IMG/VR virus record: IMGVR_UViG_3300043568_000079 | Coordinates: 1-64,000 of that record | DNA length: 64,000 nt | DNA from: a virus | Reading direction: 5' to 3' (one strand) | The notes under the pieces: generated by a model | Database searches by the model: none | The model's input: the letters and a program-made list of their open reading frames with translations, nothing else | What the model was told of the DNA's origin: nothing | In this document: positions 54,275 to 59,317 of the stretch, in pieces | Position numbering within the stretch: position 1 is the first letter of the stretch | Layout of the letters: the number at the start of each line of letters is the position of its first letter | Position numbers and translations under genes: made by a program

Positions 54275-55288
54275 ATGAACCTTTTTAAAAAAGTAGCCTG
54301 TTTTACTGACATACATTTTGGACTCAAGTCTAACAGTAGTACTCATTTACGAGATTGTGAAGAATTTGTAGATTGGTATATCGAAAACGCTAAAAAAGAA
54401 GGGTGCGATACTGGAATCTTTTTAGGAGACTGGTCACATAATCGAAATAGTCTCAACTTGATCACGCTGGATACCAGTATCCGATGCTTGGAAAAACTAG
54501 GAGCTGCTTTTGAGCAGTTCTTCTGGTTTCCGGGCAATCACGATTTGTTTTACAAAGATAAAAGAGATATCCATAGTAGTGCATTTGGAAAACACATTCC
54601 CGGAATGACCGTAATCGACGGCGTAACAACTATCGGCGATGTTACACTTGTGCCGTGGTTGGTAGGTGAAGAGTGGAAAACTATCAGTCAAGTTAAGAGC
54701 AAATACATGTTCGGACACTTTGAATTGCCCTTATTCTATATGAATGCTATGGTACAGATGCCTGATCATGGTGAATTGCAAGCTAGTCACTTCAAACATC
54801 AAGACTATGTGTTCAGCGGACACTTCCATAAGCGTCAACAGCGTGATAAAATTGTCTACATTGGTAATGCTTTTCCACATAACTTTGCAGATACAGGCGA
54901 TGATGCCCGAGGTATGATGGTTATGGATTGGGGTGGGGAACCTAAATTCATCGACTGGCCTAACTGTCCTAAGTATCGTCATGTTAAACTAAGCGACTTA
55001 ATTGACAAGAAGGACGATATCATGAAGGGCAAGATGCACCTTAAAGTCAGTCTTGACATCGATATCAGTTACGAAGAAGCAAACTTTATCAAAGAAACCT
55101 TTACTCAAGAGTATGACATCAGAGAAATCAGTCTTATTCAAGATAAAATTAACTTAGAAGGCAACATTGATGACAATCCGGACACTAAATTTGAAAGTGT
55201 GGACCAGATTGTATCAGAACAACTAGTTAATATTGAATCTGACCAATTCGATAAGGCAGTTTTACTAGACATTTATAATAATCTATGA
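54275..55288 (+). CDS. 47: Recombination endonuclease subunit gp47 (Mre11/SbcD-like)
   Basis: A 337-aa protein (T4 gp47 is 339 aa). Phosphodiesterase motifs are present in order: FTDIHFGL, GIFLGDWSHNR, FWFPGNHDLFY, MFGHFELP and VFSGHFHKRQQ, giving the metal-binding Asp/His/Asn set. With gp46 it resects DNA ends for recombination-dependent replication. It overlaps gene 46 by 4 nt (ATGA), so the two subunits are translationally coupled. The C-terminal capping region is acidic. Confidence 0.95.
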   Translation: MNLFKKVACFTDIHFGLKSNSSTHLRDCEEFVDWYIENAKKEGCDTGIFLGDWSHNRNSLNLITLDTSIRCLEKLGAAFEQFFWFPGNHDLFYKDKRDIHSSAFGKHIPGMTVIDGVTTIGDVTLVPWLVGEEWKTISQVKSKYMFGHFELPLFYMNAMVQMPDHGELQASHFKHQDYVFSGHFHKRQQRDKIVYIGNAFPHNFADTGDDARGMMVMDWGGEPKFIDWPNCPKYRHVKLSDLIDKKDDIMKGKMHLKVSLDIDISYEEANFIKETFTQEYDIREISLIQDKINLEGNIDDNPDTKFESVDQIVSEQLVNIESDQFDKAVLLDIYNNL

Positions 55289-57063
55289 GTTTTAAAATCC
55301 GTAATATCACCGTGAAAAATTTTCTATCAGTAGGAAATCAAACACAAGCCGTTGACTTTGACAAAGAACTTTTAACTTTAGTGCTGGGCTCTAATCACGA
55401 TCTAGGTGGGGACGACACAGGATCTCGTAACGGCACAGGCAAGACCACCATTGTCAATGCATTGTCGTATGCATTATACGGTCAAGCACTGACCAACATC
55501 AAAAAAGAAAACCTGATCAACAAGACCAACGGCAAAGGCATGTTAGTTACTGTTGAGTTTGAAAAATCTAGTGTTAAGTATCGTATTGAGCGGGGCCGTA
55601 AGCCCAATGTACTGAAATTGTTCGTTAATGATCAAGAATTAAAGAGCAAAGACGAAGATGAAGCACAAGGTGACAGCCGTGAAACACAGAAAAGCATTGA
55701 ACAGATGTTGGCAATGTCCCACACTATGTTCAAACACCTAGTTGCACTCAACACCTACACAGAACCCTTCTTGAGTATGAAGGCTGCTGAACAACGAGAA
55801 GTAATTGAACAGTTGTTGGGCATTACTCAACTGAGTGAAAAGGCAGAAGCACTAAAGCTATTGATCAAAGAAACTAAAGACAGCATCACCGCTGCACAGT
55901 TTAAGATTGAAGGTATTAAGAGTGCTAACGAAAATGTTCAAAAGAGCATCAACAGTTTGCAACTCAAGAGCAGTGCTTGGGAATCTAAGAAAGAAACTGA
56001 AATAGAAGGACTAGGTAAAGCCATTGTTAATCTAGAATCAGTTGATATAGATGCAGAACTAGCAGCTCATGTTGCATTAAAAGCATGGGATGAAGAGAAT
56101 GCTCGCATTCGCAGTCTTAACAAACAACGTGCTACTCTAGAGTCAGCAGTGATTCAAGCGGAACGCACACTAAACAGATATACTAAAGAGATTAAATTAC
56201 TCGATGATAAGAAGTGCCCTGCTTGCGAACAGGATCTACATGATCATAAGCATGATGAAATGCTGGCAACCGCTGCTAACAATTTATTAGATGCACAAAC
56301 TTACTTTGATAAAGTAAGTGCTGACTATACCAAAATTGTAGAAGAAATAGGAACTGGTGAGCAACCACATAGACCCAACACCTATTACGATACAGAAGCA
56401 GAAGCACTAGGTCATAAAAACAATCTTGCCAGTTTAGAGCGCACATTAACACAGAAGATCGACGAAGCTAATCCTTATGAAGAGCAAATCGAAGATCTAA
56501 AGAACACTGCGATTCAAGAAATCAACTGGGATCAAGTGAACGCTCTTGCCAAAGTTAGAGATCATCAAGAATTCCTTTACAAACTGCTGACAAACAAGGA
56601 CAGTTTTGTTCGTAAGAAGATTATCGATCAGAACTTAACCTACTTGAACAAGCGATTGACCTACTATATTGACAAACTAGGACTACCGCACAAGGTAGTA
56701 TTCCTAAATGATCTTACTATTGAGATTACTCAGTTAGGTCAAGACCTAGACTTTGACAACTTATCTAGAGGTGAACGTAATCGTTTAATCCTGTCCATGA
56801 GCTTTGCATTCCGTGATGTATGGGAAGGTCTGTATCAGAATATTAACTTGTTGTTTGTTGACGAGCTTATGGATGCAGGGATGGATGCAGCAGGTGTCGA
56901 AGCAGGTCTTGCGGTTCTAAAAAAGATGGCACGGGAACGCAATAAGAATATATACTTGATAAGTCATAAAGATGAATTAGTAGGTCGTGTAAACAACGTC
57001 CTTAGAGTTATCAAAGAAAATGGATTTACCAGTTACTCAAACGATGTCGACTATGTTGAATGA
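55285..57063 (+). CDS. 46: Recombination endonuclease subunit gp46 (Rad50/SbcC-like)
   Basis: A 592-aa protein (T4 gp46 is 560 aa). Walker A GTGKTTIVN lies near residues 50-58, coiled-coil arms flank a zinc hook CPACEQ near residue 311, and the ABC signature LSRGERNRLILS and Walker B NLLFVDELMDAGMD are near the C-terminus. It is the ATPase partner of gp47. The arms are short, as in other phage Rad50 proteins. The gene end overlaps the start of a small basic protein. Confidence 0.95.
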   Translation: MSFKIRNITVKNFLSVGNQTQAVDFDKELLTLVLGSNHDLGGDDTGSRNGTGKTTIVNALSYALYGQALTNIKKENLINKTNGKGMLVTVEFEKSSVKYRIERGRKPNVLKLFVNDQELKSKDEDEAQGDSRETQKSIEQMLAMSHTMFKHLVALNTYTEPFLSMKAAEQREVIEQLLGITQLSEKAEALKLLIKETKDSITAAQFKIEGIKSANENVQKSINSLQLKSSAWESKKETEIEGLGKAIVNLESVDIDAELAAHVALKAWDEENARIRSLNKQRATLESAVIQAERTLNRYTKEIKLLDDKKCPACEQDLHDHKHDEMLATAANNLLDAQTYFDKVSADYTKIVEEIGTGEQPHRPNTYYDTEAEALGHKNNLASLERTLTQKIDEANPYEEQIEDLKNTAIQEINWDQVNALAKVRDHQEFLYKLLTNKDSFVRKKIIDQNLTYLNKRLTYYIDKLGLPHKVVFLNDLTIEITQLGQDLDFDNLSRGERNRLILSMSFAFRDVWEGLYQNINLLFVDELMDAGMDAAGVEAGLAVLKKMARERNKNIYLISHKDELVGRVNNVLRVIKENGFTSYSNDVDYVE

Positions 57064-57370
57064 AGAGATAAACAAGTATACAGAAATGTATTCTCAGCTG
57101 ATTACTGAATTTGCAGGTCTGCATAACACACATATGTCGTTTGTAAAATACATTGGCAGAGAAACAGGATTTGCCACTAGAAAACACCTACATCAAATAT
57201 GTGTTATTGCCAACGACATGAGAAGACAGGGTCAAAAGATCCGTAGAGAAAGCATTGCAGCTAAACGAACTGCAATAAAAGAAGCAAAAGCAGAAAAAGC
57301 CAGGCTCAAAGCTATACCAAAAAAGCGTGGGCGCAAAACAAAAGGAAATAAAAATGACAACAATCAATGA
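57053..57370 (+). CDS. Basic helical phage protein, approx. 105 aa
   Basis: The frame is open from an ATG at 57020, with further in-frame ATGs at 57044 and 57053; I chose 57053 because it keeps the overlap with gene 46 smallest, but no candidate has a clear ribosome site. The product has an N-terminal helix (NEEINKYTEMYSQLITEFAG), a middle segment (FATRKHLHQICVIANDMRRQ) and a Lys/Arg/Ala-rich tail (RGRKTKGNKN) typical of nucleic-acid-binding tails. It precedes the histone-like gene, which starts inside it. Function not known. Confidence 0.6.
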   Translation: MLNEEINKYTEMYSQLITEFAGLHNTHMSFVKYIGRETGFATRKHLHQICVIANDMRRQGQKIRRESIAAKRTAIKEAKAEKARLKAIPKKRGRKTKGNKNDNNQ

Positions 57371-57551
57371 ACAATTACAAGCACAGTTTGCAGAATTTCT
57401 AGCAGAGGATGCAAAATTTACAGGCGGCAATAGTGCAGCCGGAACTCGCAGTCGCAAGGCTCTTGGAGAGTTAAGTAAGCTAGTAAAAGCAAGACGCAAT
57501 GAAATTACAGCAGAAAAGAACGCTCGCAAAGAAGCTAAGGCAGCAAAATAA
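57354..57551 (+). CDS. Histone H1-like (Hc1-type) DNA-binding protein
   Basis: A 65-aa protein from the ATG at 57354, preceded by AAGGAA; an in-frame GTG at 57327 would add 9 residues without a ribosome site. GGNSAAGTRSRKALGELSKL, then VKARRNEITAEKNARKEAK, follows the Hc1 pattern (GNKAAGTRARKxxxELxKLxKxxRK) known from Chlamydia- and Bacteroides-type histone-like proteins. It probably binds DNA through its Arg/Lys helices and may compact or regulate phage or host DNA. The resemblance is from memory; a profile search against the Hc1 family would test it. Confidence 0.6.
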   Translation: MTTINEQLQAQFAEFLAEDAKFTGGNSAAGTRSRKALGELSKLVKARRNEITAEKNARKEAKAAK

Positions 57552-57983
57552 TTGAACAACTGGACTTATCAAGGTTCAGTAGTCGAAGAGCTACCCGAAG
57601 ACTGTATAGGTTTTGTATATTGCATTACCAATACTGTCTCGGGTCGCAAATATATTGGCAAAAAATTAGCAAAATTTAGTAAAACGACCTACAAGACTGT
57701 AAAGTTAAAGAACGGCACAAAGAAAAAGAAAAAGATCCGCAGCAAAATTGCTTCGGATTGGCAAGAATATTACGGCTCCAGTGTTGAGCTGACAAAAGAC
57801 ATAGACACCTTGGGCAAACAAAACTTCTCCCGCGAAATATTATATTACTGCAAAAGTAAATCAGAAACATCTTACATTGAGGCCCGCGAACAATTCGACC
57901 GCAAAGTATTAGAATCCGACGAATACTATAACGGACACATACAAGTCCGTGTCCATGGCTCTCACATTAAAACAAAAATTTAA
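57552..57983 (+). CDS. GIY-YIG-type nuclease-like phage protein
   Basis: A 143-aa product starting at TTG, directly after the previous stop. GFVYCITNTVSGRKYIGKKL is the GIY-YIG signature (here GFVY...KYIG). A Lys-rich insert (KLKNGTKKKKKIRSK), SDWQEYYGSS, LGKQNFSREILYYCKSK and YIEAREQFDRKVL match the short T4-like phage proteins of this type. The conserved Arg and the catalytic Glu (EAREQF) appear present. There is no sign of a homing context (no split gene), so a resident repair or DNA-processing role is more likely than a mobile element. Confidence 0.75.
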   Translation: MNNWTYQGSVVEELPEDCIGFVYCITNTVSGRKYIGKKLAKFSKTTYKTVKLKNGTKKKKKIRSKIASDWQEYYGSSVELTKDIDTLGKQNFSREILYYCKSKSETSYIEAREQFDRKVLESDEYYNGHIQVRVHGSHIKTKI

Positions 57984-57987
57984 AATC

Positions 57988-58269
57988 ATGACGAAGCTAA
58001 ATTACTCTAAGACAAATAAAAGCGATACAGCGTTTTTAAATGATCCTTATTGGACTAAGCCGAAAACTGGATTTGACAAGACATGGCATACTCAAAGAGA
58101 CAATCTCAAGCAACACCTAGGCATTCACAAAGAACATAACTGGGAAATCATCAACGAACCTACAGGTCCACACGCAGGTAAAGTGGTCTGTGATACTTGC
58201 AAAACTAAAAAAGGCAAAAGTATGTTTGTTTCATGGCTTCCTAAAGGTTACATATTACCTAACACCTAA
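57988..58269 (+). CDS. Small CXXC-containing phage protein
   Basis: The frame is open from a GTG at 57949 (with an ATG at 57955), but the ATG at 57988 avoids overlap with the previous gene; the choice is uncertain because no start has a good ribosome site. The product (about 93 aa) contains DPYWTKPKTGFDKTWHTQRD, then EHNWEIINEPTGPHAGKVVC and CDTCKTKKGKS, with one CXXC pair. This C-terminal part looks like a small treble-clef or rubredoxin-like knuckle with one half of the metal site missing or supplied by His. Function not known. The structured non-coding segment begins right after it. Confidence 0.6.
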   Translation: MTKLNYSKTNKSDTAFLNDPYWTKPKTGFDKTWHTQRDNLKQHLGIHKEHNWEIINEPTGPHAGKVVCDTCKTKKGKSMFVSWLPKGYILPNT

Positions 58270-58270
58270 G

Positions 58271-58729
58271 GTTGGCGGGCCAGTTTAATAATACCGCTGT
58301 GGAAAAACCGGGGAATAACCGGACACGTAACATATTGAGACACTCCCGTGGGTATATCCCACTAGCCTGAAAAATCGGCAGCGAGTCTGAGAGCGCGAAC
58401 CCTAATGCTCGACGTATTGATATAGTATGAATGTTAGCATACGAAATCACCGGCTAAGAAAACTTAGACACTAGGAACGAGGTCTAAGACGCATTATGCG
58501 AGTCGATGTAGGTTGGGAAAGATCAGAGCCCATTAGCTTACGGTGAATAAAAATACCTACTTCCAATGTCTCGGCTGTGTGCAACTCACATGAAGACAAA
58601 AGATGGAACCGCAGCAAAACGGTTCCGTCTGACCGAAGCAATCTACATGAATTTAATTAGCTTCGCTTAAATAGTGCTTCAAGTAAGAGCGTAAGCGATT
58701 ACGAAGAAGCAAATGAGCGTCAGCTCATT
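58271..58729 (+). ncRNA. Candidate large structured RNA, approx. 460 nt, unassigned
   Basis: No plausible coding frame exists on either strand, yet the segment is dense in complementary pairs. Main stems: 58348-58352/58358-58362; 58425-58429/58438-58442; 58463-58469/58482-58488 (7 bp); 58568-58571/58594-58597 enclosing 58578-58581/58587-58590; 58601-58611/58620-58630 (11 bp, one G-U); 58675-58680/58706-58711 enclosing 58690-58694/58699-58703 with a GCGA tetraloop of the GNRA type; 58712-58718/58723-58729. Two long-range pairings cross: 58448-58458/58537-58545 and 58506-58515/58639-58648, implying a pseudoknot. It lies 1 nt after a stop codon and ends at a perfect late promoter. Strand is inferred from the tetraloop and G-U pairs. 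No match to tRNA, tmRNA, RNase P or a group I/II intron was found by eye. Confidence 0.6.
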
Positions 58730-58736
58730 ATAAATA
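58729..58736 (+). promoter_or_regulatory. T4 late-type promoter TATAAATA at the end of the structured segment
   Basis: An exact TATAAATA begins on the last base of the terminal hairpin. The predicted start near 58742 gives a leader of about 24 nt with TTAGGA as ribosome site before the ATG at 58766. Confidence 0.7.
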
Positions 58737-58765
58737 AAAGAAATACTTTTTAGGATTTCCTTGAT

Positions 58766-59317
58766 ATGCGTATAAATGAGTTAATTGTTAAACAACAACT
58801 AGATGAATTAAGCCTAGCCGGGGCTCTAGGATCAGCAGCAAGAGGTACTGCAAATGTTGTAGGCGGTACTAGAGGTGCTATAGCAGGCGCTAAAGATGTG
58901 TTTAATCAACGAGCAGATCGAGTTGCTAATGTTGCTCAGAGACGTGTTCAACAAGCTGGAGGTTATAAAGCCCCACCAGCTCCTACGACTACTGTGGCAC
59001 CTCCAGCTACTACAGCTCAAACTAATACAGCACCTGCTACCGGAACCACCGCTCCCGCTAATACAGCACCTGCTACAAATGCAGCTAGTCAAGGAAAAGT
59101 GGGCGAACCAGCAGGAACAACACCTGCCACTACAGCAAACACAGGAAAAGTAGGTGAACCTGCAGGTCGTCAAGCAATTGACAATGCAATTGCTACCATT
59201 AAGGCAGTTAGGGGTGATCGCAGACCTCAAGTAGTTGCATACGGAATACAACAATTAGGTACCGTAAAAGAATCTAACCTAATATTTCACAGCAATTTCT
59301 TAGGTAAAGATATTTAA
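58766..59317 (+). CDS. Ala/Thr/Pro-rich late protein, 183 aa
   Basis: The N-terminus (MRINELIVKQQLDELSLAGA) is helical and followed by a Gly/Ala-rich stretch. Residues about 70-135 are low-complexity Ala/Thr/Pro with a repeated GKVGEPAG (two copies), likely disordered. The end (AIATIKAVRGDRRPQVVAYG) is an ordered helix. It has a perfect late promoter, so it is probably a virion or assembly protein; a prohead-core-like role is possible given the composition. Its stop shares TTAA with the convergent gp51-like gene. Confidence 0.6.
   Translation: MRINELIVKQQLDELSLAGALGSAARGTANVVGGTRGAIAGAKDVFNQRADRVANVAQRRVQQAGGYKAPPAPTTTVAPPATTAQTNTAPATGTTAPANTAPATNAASQGKVGEPAGTTPATTANTGKVGEPAGRQAIDNAIATIKAVRGDRRPQVVAYGIQQLGTVKESNLIFHSNFLGKDI

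Follow-up and report, generated by a model that had tools for sequence, protein, structure and literature searches.

Few large structured RNAs are known in phages, GOLLD and ROOL among them. According to the account of these two classes in PMC12286853, both often lie near tRNA islands, the solved example of ROOL has 659 nt, GOLLD often exceeds 800 nt, and GOLLD joins a conserved 3' region to a variable 5' region. Polynucleobacter-1 (RF01718) was described for Burkholderiales and for fresh water and estuary, and in the part of the report that concerns it is not entered as a phage RNA (Weinberg et al. 2010, PMC2864571). A search of PMC yielded nothing further on Polynucleobacter-1/RF01718. Among the papers listed in PMC for structured RNAs of T4-like phages, ROOL with GOLLD, RNA covariation in jumbo phages, and GIY-YIG genes with phage non-coding RNA (the last a work on group II introns), none was found by its listing to describe the RNA reported here.

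The window analysed here is a stretch of 64,000 nucleotides that forms part of a 74,152-base IMG/VR virus record. A preliminary description had set apart positions 58271-58729 as a non-coding segment with dense RNA structure. On comparative sequence evidence, this segment is the gene for a multiply pseudoknotted non-coding RNA of about 400 bases belonging to T4-like phages, and we regard the presence of a conserved folded RNA here as virtually certain. The RNA gene was therefore correctly recognized, but its conserved core lies at 58259-58651, with the 5' start inside the 3' end of the upstream ORF:

58259..58651, + strand: type A structured RNA, its conserved core running from the first strand of PKa, a pseudoknot, to heptamer copy 2; supported by homology, 112 non-redundant full-length copies and covariation
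57988..58269, + strand: 93-aa ORF that follows the GIY-YIG gene and overlaps, with its 3' end, the 5' strand of the RNA

The segment had been said to lack a plausible ORF and to be less AT-rich than its surroundings, and both statements hold. The longest ORFs listed within it encode 63 and 56 aa, both on the minus strand. Among 94 homologues, a stop-free frame ran from end to end in two, the median longest stop-free run was 69 aa of about 130, and the lengths were spread over all three classes modulo 3 (26, 33 and 35). A translated frame conserved among relatives, which the preliminary description had named as evidence against an RNA, was looked for in these 94 sequences and not found. The G+C content was 45.5% in the segment versus 38.1% in the whole window, a level reached by 2.4% of 411-nt windows. 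Minimum free energy gave a z-score of -4.0 on the plus strand and one of -3.1 on the minus strand as well; folding energy alone was thus not decisive, and covariation decided the question.

Homologous loci were gathered from viral contigs by searches with the neighbouring proteins and three DNA patterns, and all counts are lower bounds. With window positions 58262-58668 as the nhmmer query (E<=1e-3), the RNA was found in at least 211 of 290 gathered loci, many of which had been gathered by the RNA's own patterns; some contigs are covered twice, and the window's own record is included. The RNA loci comprised 145 full-length copies, of which 129 were unique and 112 fell below 93% identity. As judged from these matches, well over a hundred distinct viruses of bacteria carry the RNA, mostly at the same place. 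Since contigs of 220-355 kb are among the carriers, the RNA is to be placed with large T4-like phages, a group of which little is known. In a search of genome contigs, two stretches were recovered, both from one Neomarinimicrobiota MAG (L291 and L292; PBPT01000016.1 and PBPT01000082.1, 335 and 153 kb). Each has the 3' domain of the RNA behind a GIY-YIG-like frame and is of type C (see below), and L292 also carries phage gp46 and gp47; on these grounds they are probably phage contigs binned with the MAG. In the phage collection, blastn with the window and with loci L012, L142 and L110 gave no convincing match, the window yielding five short alignments at E<=10. Plasmids gave no match to the window by blastn. 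Around gp46 of Phosso and PA5oct, two named gp46 relatives, approximately 13.7 kb contained no such RNA and no GIY-YIG match.

Helices were chosen from column statistics on the 112 sequences (effective number 25 at 80%) together with a helix survey. They were then counted on another alignment, made of 94 of the 112 sequences with identity below 88%. The following helices, all on the + strand, were supported:

58259..58264 with 58432..58437, + strand: pseudoknot PKa, reaching into the P6 loop; 99.8% of cells paired, both-side changes in 4 of 6 pairs
58275-58278/58294-58297, + strand: P2 hairpin; 100% paired, both-side changes in 2 of 4 pairs
58298-58301/58324-58327, + strand: P3, enclosing P4; from the covariation count
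58308-58311/58319-58322, + strand: P4, inside P3; from the covariation count
58332-58338/58417-58423, + strand: P5, enclosing a variable region; from the covariation count
58425-58429/58438-58442, + strand: P6; both-side changes in 5 of 5 pairs
58452-58456/58534-58538, + strand: P7, a long-range helix; both-side changes in 5 of 5 pairs
58463-58466/58485-58488, + strand: P8, its loop containing the invariant GGAACGA
58505-58507/58522-58524, + strand: PKb of the triple pseudoknot 58505..58560; 2 pairs changed on both sides
58508-58513/58555-58560, + strand: PKd of the same triple pseudoknot; 2 pairs changed on both sides
58514-58517/58529-58532, + strand: PKc of the same triple pseudoknot; 2 pairs changed on both sides
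58601-58611/58620-58630, + strand: P11, an 11-bp hairpin between the heptamers; 87.1% of cells paired, both-side changes in 3 of 11 pairs

The 63 chosen pairs, which form 12 helices, four of these being pseudoknots, and leave out the P5 interior and the P8-PKb region, were paired in 96.0% of 5,894 cells across the 94 homologues. Changes on both sides occurred in 37 of the 63 pairs, with 768 compensatory cells. Shuffling gave 239 +- 12 compensatory cells and reached 768 in none of 500 trials, and sliding the helices gave 37-114 compensatory cells with 35-42% paired. Because the helices were picked from the same sequences, these controls lean in their favour, and the margin is large. Covariation of the kind sought for a new modular phage RNA family was thus found. 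The dense structure read from the single sequence is upheld, although that reading missed the pseudoknots, four of which have covariation support. The 11-bp hairpin it had pointed out, P11, is real, though its end pairs break in many homologues: the innermost pair forms in 29 of 94 and the outermost in 24 of 94 (20 gapped), and the middle is well paired with few double changes. The inner two pairs of P4 are broken in 20-21 of the 94 rows. The RNAalifold consensus initially placed the 5' end with approximately 58271-58274, and 58298-58303 with 58642-58647; covariation favoured PKa and P3 instead. The invariant GGAACGA of the P8 loop (58474-58480) could alternatively pair with GUUCC of P11 and, being invariant, offers no variation to judge by. 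This is a large and well-supported structured RNA that joins the few known in phages.

We compared the RNA with described families. Rfam gave no match in the segment at gathering score and, up to E 10 across 58230-58800, only two chance-level matches at the 3' edge (E 3.4 and 5.2). The models for tmRNA, RNase P, group I and II introns, GOLLD and ROOL had no match at E<=10, the last two also none in the further loci, and ARAGORN found neither tRNA nor tmRNA in the window. The suggestion that the RNA might be GOLLD or ROOL is therefore dropped, both for want of a match and because the window has no tRNAs; the earlier impression that it resembled no tRNA, tmRNA, RNase P or intron agrees with these searches. 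The other suggestion, a large ornate phage RNA and perhaps a new class, is borne out by more than 100 distinct homologues with compensatory changes and by the lack of an Rfam match. Size and pseudoknots would also suit a ribozyme, an intron relic, or a derivative of tmRNA or RNase P, and GIY-YIG genes often travel in group I introns. Phages can in addition carry tmRNA, Melnitz being an example in PMC9004378. Nevertheless, we consider such an origin very improbable, given the Rfam and ARAGORN results and the fact that no interrupted gene is apparent at the site.

The RNA occupies a characteristic place in the genome. It is usually the last element of a run of gp47, gp46 and nuclease genes, ahead of late-promoter-like motifs and structural genes. 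In the window, these neighbours are:

54275..57063, + strand: gp47-like and gp46-like genes (SbcD/SbcC), with which this gene run starts
57552..57983, + strand: SegE-type GIY-YIG endonuclease gene (PF19835, E 3.2e-33), the usual upstream neighbour
58729..58736, + strand: late-promoter-like TATAAATA, before the next gene

We take TATAAATA and the related NATAAATA to be late-promoter-like after the T4 consensus. The 7-bp hairpin at 58712-58729, which had been counted as the terminal part of the structure, lies outside the conserved core and adjoins TATAAATA. Structural genes follow 3' of the RNA (baseplate hub and tape measure by PHROG). The 93-aa ORF has 10 related loci in viral contigs, and neither Pfam nor PHROG gave a match for it. 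Just before the GIY-YIG gene, a 74-aa basic ORF (57327-57551) matches the histone H1-like Hc1 family (PF07432, E 1.4e-12), a score that its composition may inflate. The label 'NAD synthetase' that PHROG 447 and many phage records give to the SegE-type GIY-YIG family looks like an error passed on from one annotation to the next. Two other genes were noted before the RNA in phage contigs: one for a hemC-like porphobilinogen deaminase in L142 (PF01379, E 1.9e-62) and, by blast cluster, in L113, L227 and L279, and a tryptophan-halogenase-like one in L124 (PF04820, E 5.1e-76) and, by blast cluster, in L172.

The same slot holds related RNAs. Among the best 80 of at least 588 GIY-YIG loci, 5 carried the form found in the window (type A), 63 matched the probe from L012 (type B), seven of them in the 3' half only, and 12 matched neither. 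Six of these 12 have at most 120 nt behind the GIY-YIG gene, and later models matched L075, L042 and L091; L071, L084 and L089 have at least 600 nt behind the gene, in which the type A, B and C models found no RNA. Type B is a sister RNA behind gp46 and the GIY-YIG gene, with covarying helices of its own that include a 5' strand paired into a hairpin-loop region (47 non-redundant sequences). Its 5' third is Polynucleobacter-1 (RF01718), which scored 80.6 bits in L012 against a cut-off of 37 and matched 12 of 18 further loci, the six misses having been included since their 5' part looked different or unmatched. Thus the class is new only in part, Polynucleobacter-1 being the 5' third of a sister RNA.

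The 3' ends of types A and B were compared with R1, a covariance model of the type A 3' end built from 31 sequences and run on 63 GIY-YIG loci and three named controls. At E<=10, it gave 33 matches. Of these, 30 (E 0.011 to 9.8) fell where they were expected, one in each of 30 loci, three fell elsewhere, and the controls had none. Each match is weak alone, and it is their common position that indicates that the two 3' ends are related. A wider family, drawn by the same slot and a related 3' end and not by Rfam's definition, therefore includes the Polynucleobacter-1-bearing type B. R1 was also run on 12 virus records and one MAG. Eleven of the virus records, which may be fragments, matched, each with a single copy; the record of L236, a locus gathered through a 17-mer pattern alone, did not, and the MAG matched on two contigs.

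The type A 3' domain alone was common to 24 loci. In the 22 of these with upstream sequence (18 unique), the part that immediately follows the GIY-YIG gene aligns as one more 5' domain, shorter than the other two and termed type C. A profile of this domain, built from those same sequences, of which L179 is the most divergent, also matched L042, L043 and L091 (E 7e-8 to 6e-6). L043 combines the type C 5' domain with a type B 3' half (E 1.7e-5) and is a likely chimera, which suggests that domains recombine. With these profiles, whose reach stops short of very remote similarity, the three 5' domains (A, B and C) showed no similarity to one another. The family looks modular, with exchangeable 5' domains on related 3' domains.

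To what extent the RNA depends on its neighbours bears on two alternative roles. Among 163 loci whose sequence covers the 5' end of the RNA, 151 have a GIY-YIG match upstream on the RNA strand, and in 109 of the 151 it ends 0-49 nt before the RNA. Of the 12 loci lacking the match, five have less than 120 nt upstream. Two others (L224 and L230) have a PDDEXK nuclease (PF24608) as the upstream neighbour, with gp46 present. Four (L171, L196, L238 and L282) have upstream ORFs with no nuclease match in Pfam or PHROG, most of them lacking any assignment; one in L196 weakly resembles a minor tail protein, and the copy of the RNA in L282 is partial (model 3-165). The last, L261, has no ORF of at least 80 aa ending within 900 nt upstream on the RNA strand. 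The RNA can thus stand without the GIY-YIG nuclease and is a gene of its own, not an appendage.

The constancy of the nuclease gene, and its replacement by another small nuclease in L224 and L230, would suit an RNA that serves the neighbouring nuclease (GIY-YIG or PDDEXK) as guide or cofactor, or inhibits it, by analogy with the RNAs made next to TnpB and IscB genes. We hold this to be quite improbable. The five loci just described without a recognized nuclease argue against it, as do the 483 named phage records that contain a related GIY-YIG gene (all below 60% identity), in none of which blastn with types A, B and C found the RNA, a search that remote forms would escape. In Melnitz, the type A and B profiles found no RNA in 8.4 kb around the GIY-YIG gene. 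The heptamers described below are also short for a guide, and no target was seen.

The other alternative is a cis-acting 3' UTR or boundary element that would protect, end or anti-terminate the gp47-gp46-nuclease transcript at the boundary of early and late genes. Such a role within that transcript is possible, as the gene ordinarily found upstream does not vary. The close spacing to the nuclease gene agrees with it, and so does the arrangement of promoter-like motifs: in 101 of 168 loci, NATAAATA lies no more than 200 nt beyond the RNA (background 0.04 per 200 bp), and none of 155 loci has TATAAATA in the 250 nt before it. Sigma-70-like sites were no more frequent than expected (1 found versus 1.8). 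However, a consensus scan of 57900-58800 found no terminator on the + strand, and the loci without a recognized nuclease tell against this role too. In addition, of 88 loci judged (from 112 non-redundant loci, 21 being too short and 3 having none), 73 have their largest ORF 3' of the RNA on its own strand and 15 have it on the other, so that the RNA is not tied to the downstream gene. A length of about 400 nt, four pseudoknots and exchangeable 5' domains would seem to go beyond the needs of such an element, which we regard as unlikely.

A hallmark of the family is a heptamer that occurs twice in the 3' domain:

58588..58594, + strand: twin heptamer copy 1, ACAUGAA, flanking P11, co-changing
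58645..58651, + strand: twin heptamer copy 2, ACAUGAA, flanking P11, co-changing

Within an RNA, the two copies match each other exactly in 126 of the 129 type A sequences and in all 53 of type B (179 of 182 together), even though 17 different heptamers occur, 11 in type A and 6 in type B. The bases before them, ACUC and AUCU, are mostly constant. In type C, the copies are identical in 17 of 17 readable sequences of 18; all are ACATGAA, so type C adds no change to the evidence for concerted change. We followed the changes on a tree of 94 RNAs, made by a quick method with the heptamer columns left out, in which the copies are identical in 91 rows. At least 23 changes occurred in copy 1 and at least 22 in copy 2. 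Between independent pairs, copy 2 differed like copy 1 in 5 of 5, 2 of 2, 3 of 3, 5 of 5 and approximately 6.9 of 9 cases at positions 1, 3, 4, 5 and 7. Copy 2 never changed in the opposite way, and at position 7 it was unchanged in approximately 2 of 9 pairs. Only position 7 reached p<0.05 alone (median 0.016), the other positions having too few independent pairs.

No counterpart of the heptamer was detected nearby. Within the RNA, no column is complementary to it or co-varies with its changes. Within 400 nt, neither its complement nor a third copy was in excess (49 versus 60.8 and 78 versus 91.8 expected, of 179), and the locus flanks likewise showed no excess (direct, 130 versus 142.8; complement, 63 versus 69.7 expected). 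An apparent depletion in the flanks against permuted heptamers (133 versus 211.9 direct; 63 versus 128.2 complement) vanished when the heptamers of other loci served as the control. The heptamer is accordingly not supported as a switch that pairs inside the RNA, as a site recurring in the flanks, or as one with a complement close by. Ribosomal bypassing between the heptamers was rejected, as their spacing of 47-68 nt is not restricted to multiples of three and no frame is conserved. That gene conversion keeps the repeats alike was judged unlikely, since the flanks stay distinct. Because the copies are identical and change together beside mostly constant flanks, the simplest reading is that they represent two equal sites for one external partner.

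It is possible that the RNA assembles, as GOLLD and ROOL do, into a homo-oligomeric cage or ring with the heptamers in the subunit interface. The RNA is large, ornate and pseudoknotted, its conserved 3' and variable 5' parts recall GOLLD as characterized in PMC12286853, and ACAUGAA includes the self-complementary CAUG. However, the heptamers GGAUAAU, ACAGGAA and GAAUAAU lack such a palindrome, no complement co-varies inside the RNA, and about 400 nt is small beside the sizes given there for ROOL (659 nt) and GOLLD (often >800 nt). An assembly of RNA alone thus seems a minor possibility.

The likeliest reading, which we put forward tentatively, is that the RNA is a trans-acting scaffold presenting two identical sites to one co-evolving partner. 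The RNA would be released from the upstream transcript, or made from its own promoter, and would act in trans, its pseudoknotted body serving as a rigid scaffold. Both heptamers might be bound at once by a partner with two equal sites, for instance a protein dimer or a nucleic acid present in two copies; if this partner differs between phage lineages, both copies would be forced to change together. The exchangeable 5' domain could dock a second, lineage-specific target. In sum, the RNA would tether or titrate some factor of the host or the phage while infection proceeds. Heptamers changing in step are a rare kind of evidence, as the unseen partner must read both and can thus be searched for. 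A more specific proposal, which we consider possible and no better than a low probability, is a modular RNA machine in which swappable 5' receptor domains and a pseudoknotted 3' body with two co-changing recognition heptamers link a target specific to the host with a partner specific to the phage; it could, for instance, serve as a decoy or adaptor that counters a host defence. If true, its domain swapping would be comparable to that of tail fibres. The alignment and the structure make mutational tests possible at once.

Compared with the known systems, the RNA of the window differs from GOLLD in lacking a covariance match, in being about half as long and in having no tRNAs in the window, and the twin heptamer is absent from the description of GOLLD in PMC12286853. 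With ROOL, as presented in the same source, it shares the character of a large, multiply pseudoknotted phage RNA of unknown function, and differs from it in giving no covariance match, in its length (about 400 versus 659 nt) and in the absence of tRNAs from the window. The Rfam model of Polynucleobacter-1 (RF01718) spans 141 nt without the central and 3' domains, and the RNA of the window does not match it, either at gathering score or at E<=10 for 58230-58800. In type B, however, Polynucleobacter-1 forms the 5' third of an RNA in the same slot behind the GIY-YIG gene that shares the related 3' end and the twin heptamers. A little-studied Rfam entry is thereby recognized as one exchangeable part of a larger phage RNA.
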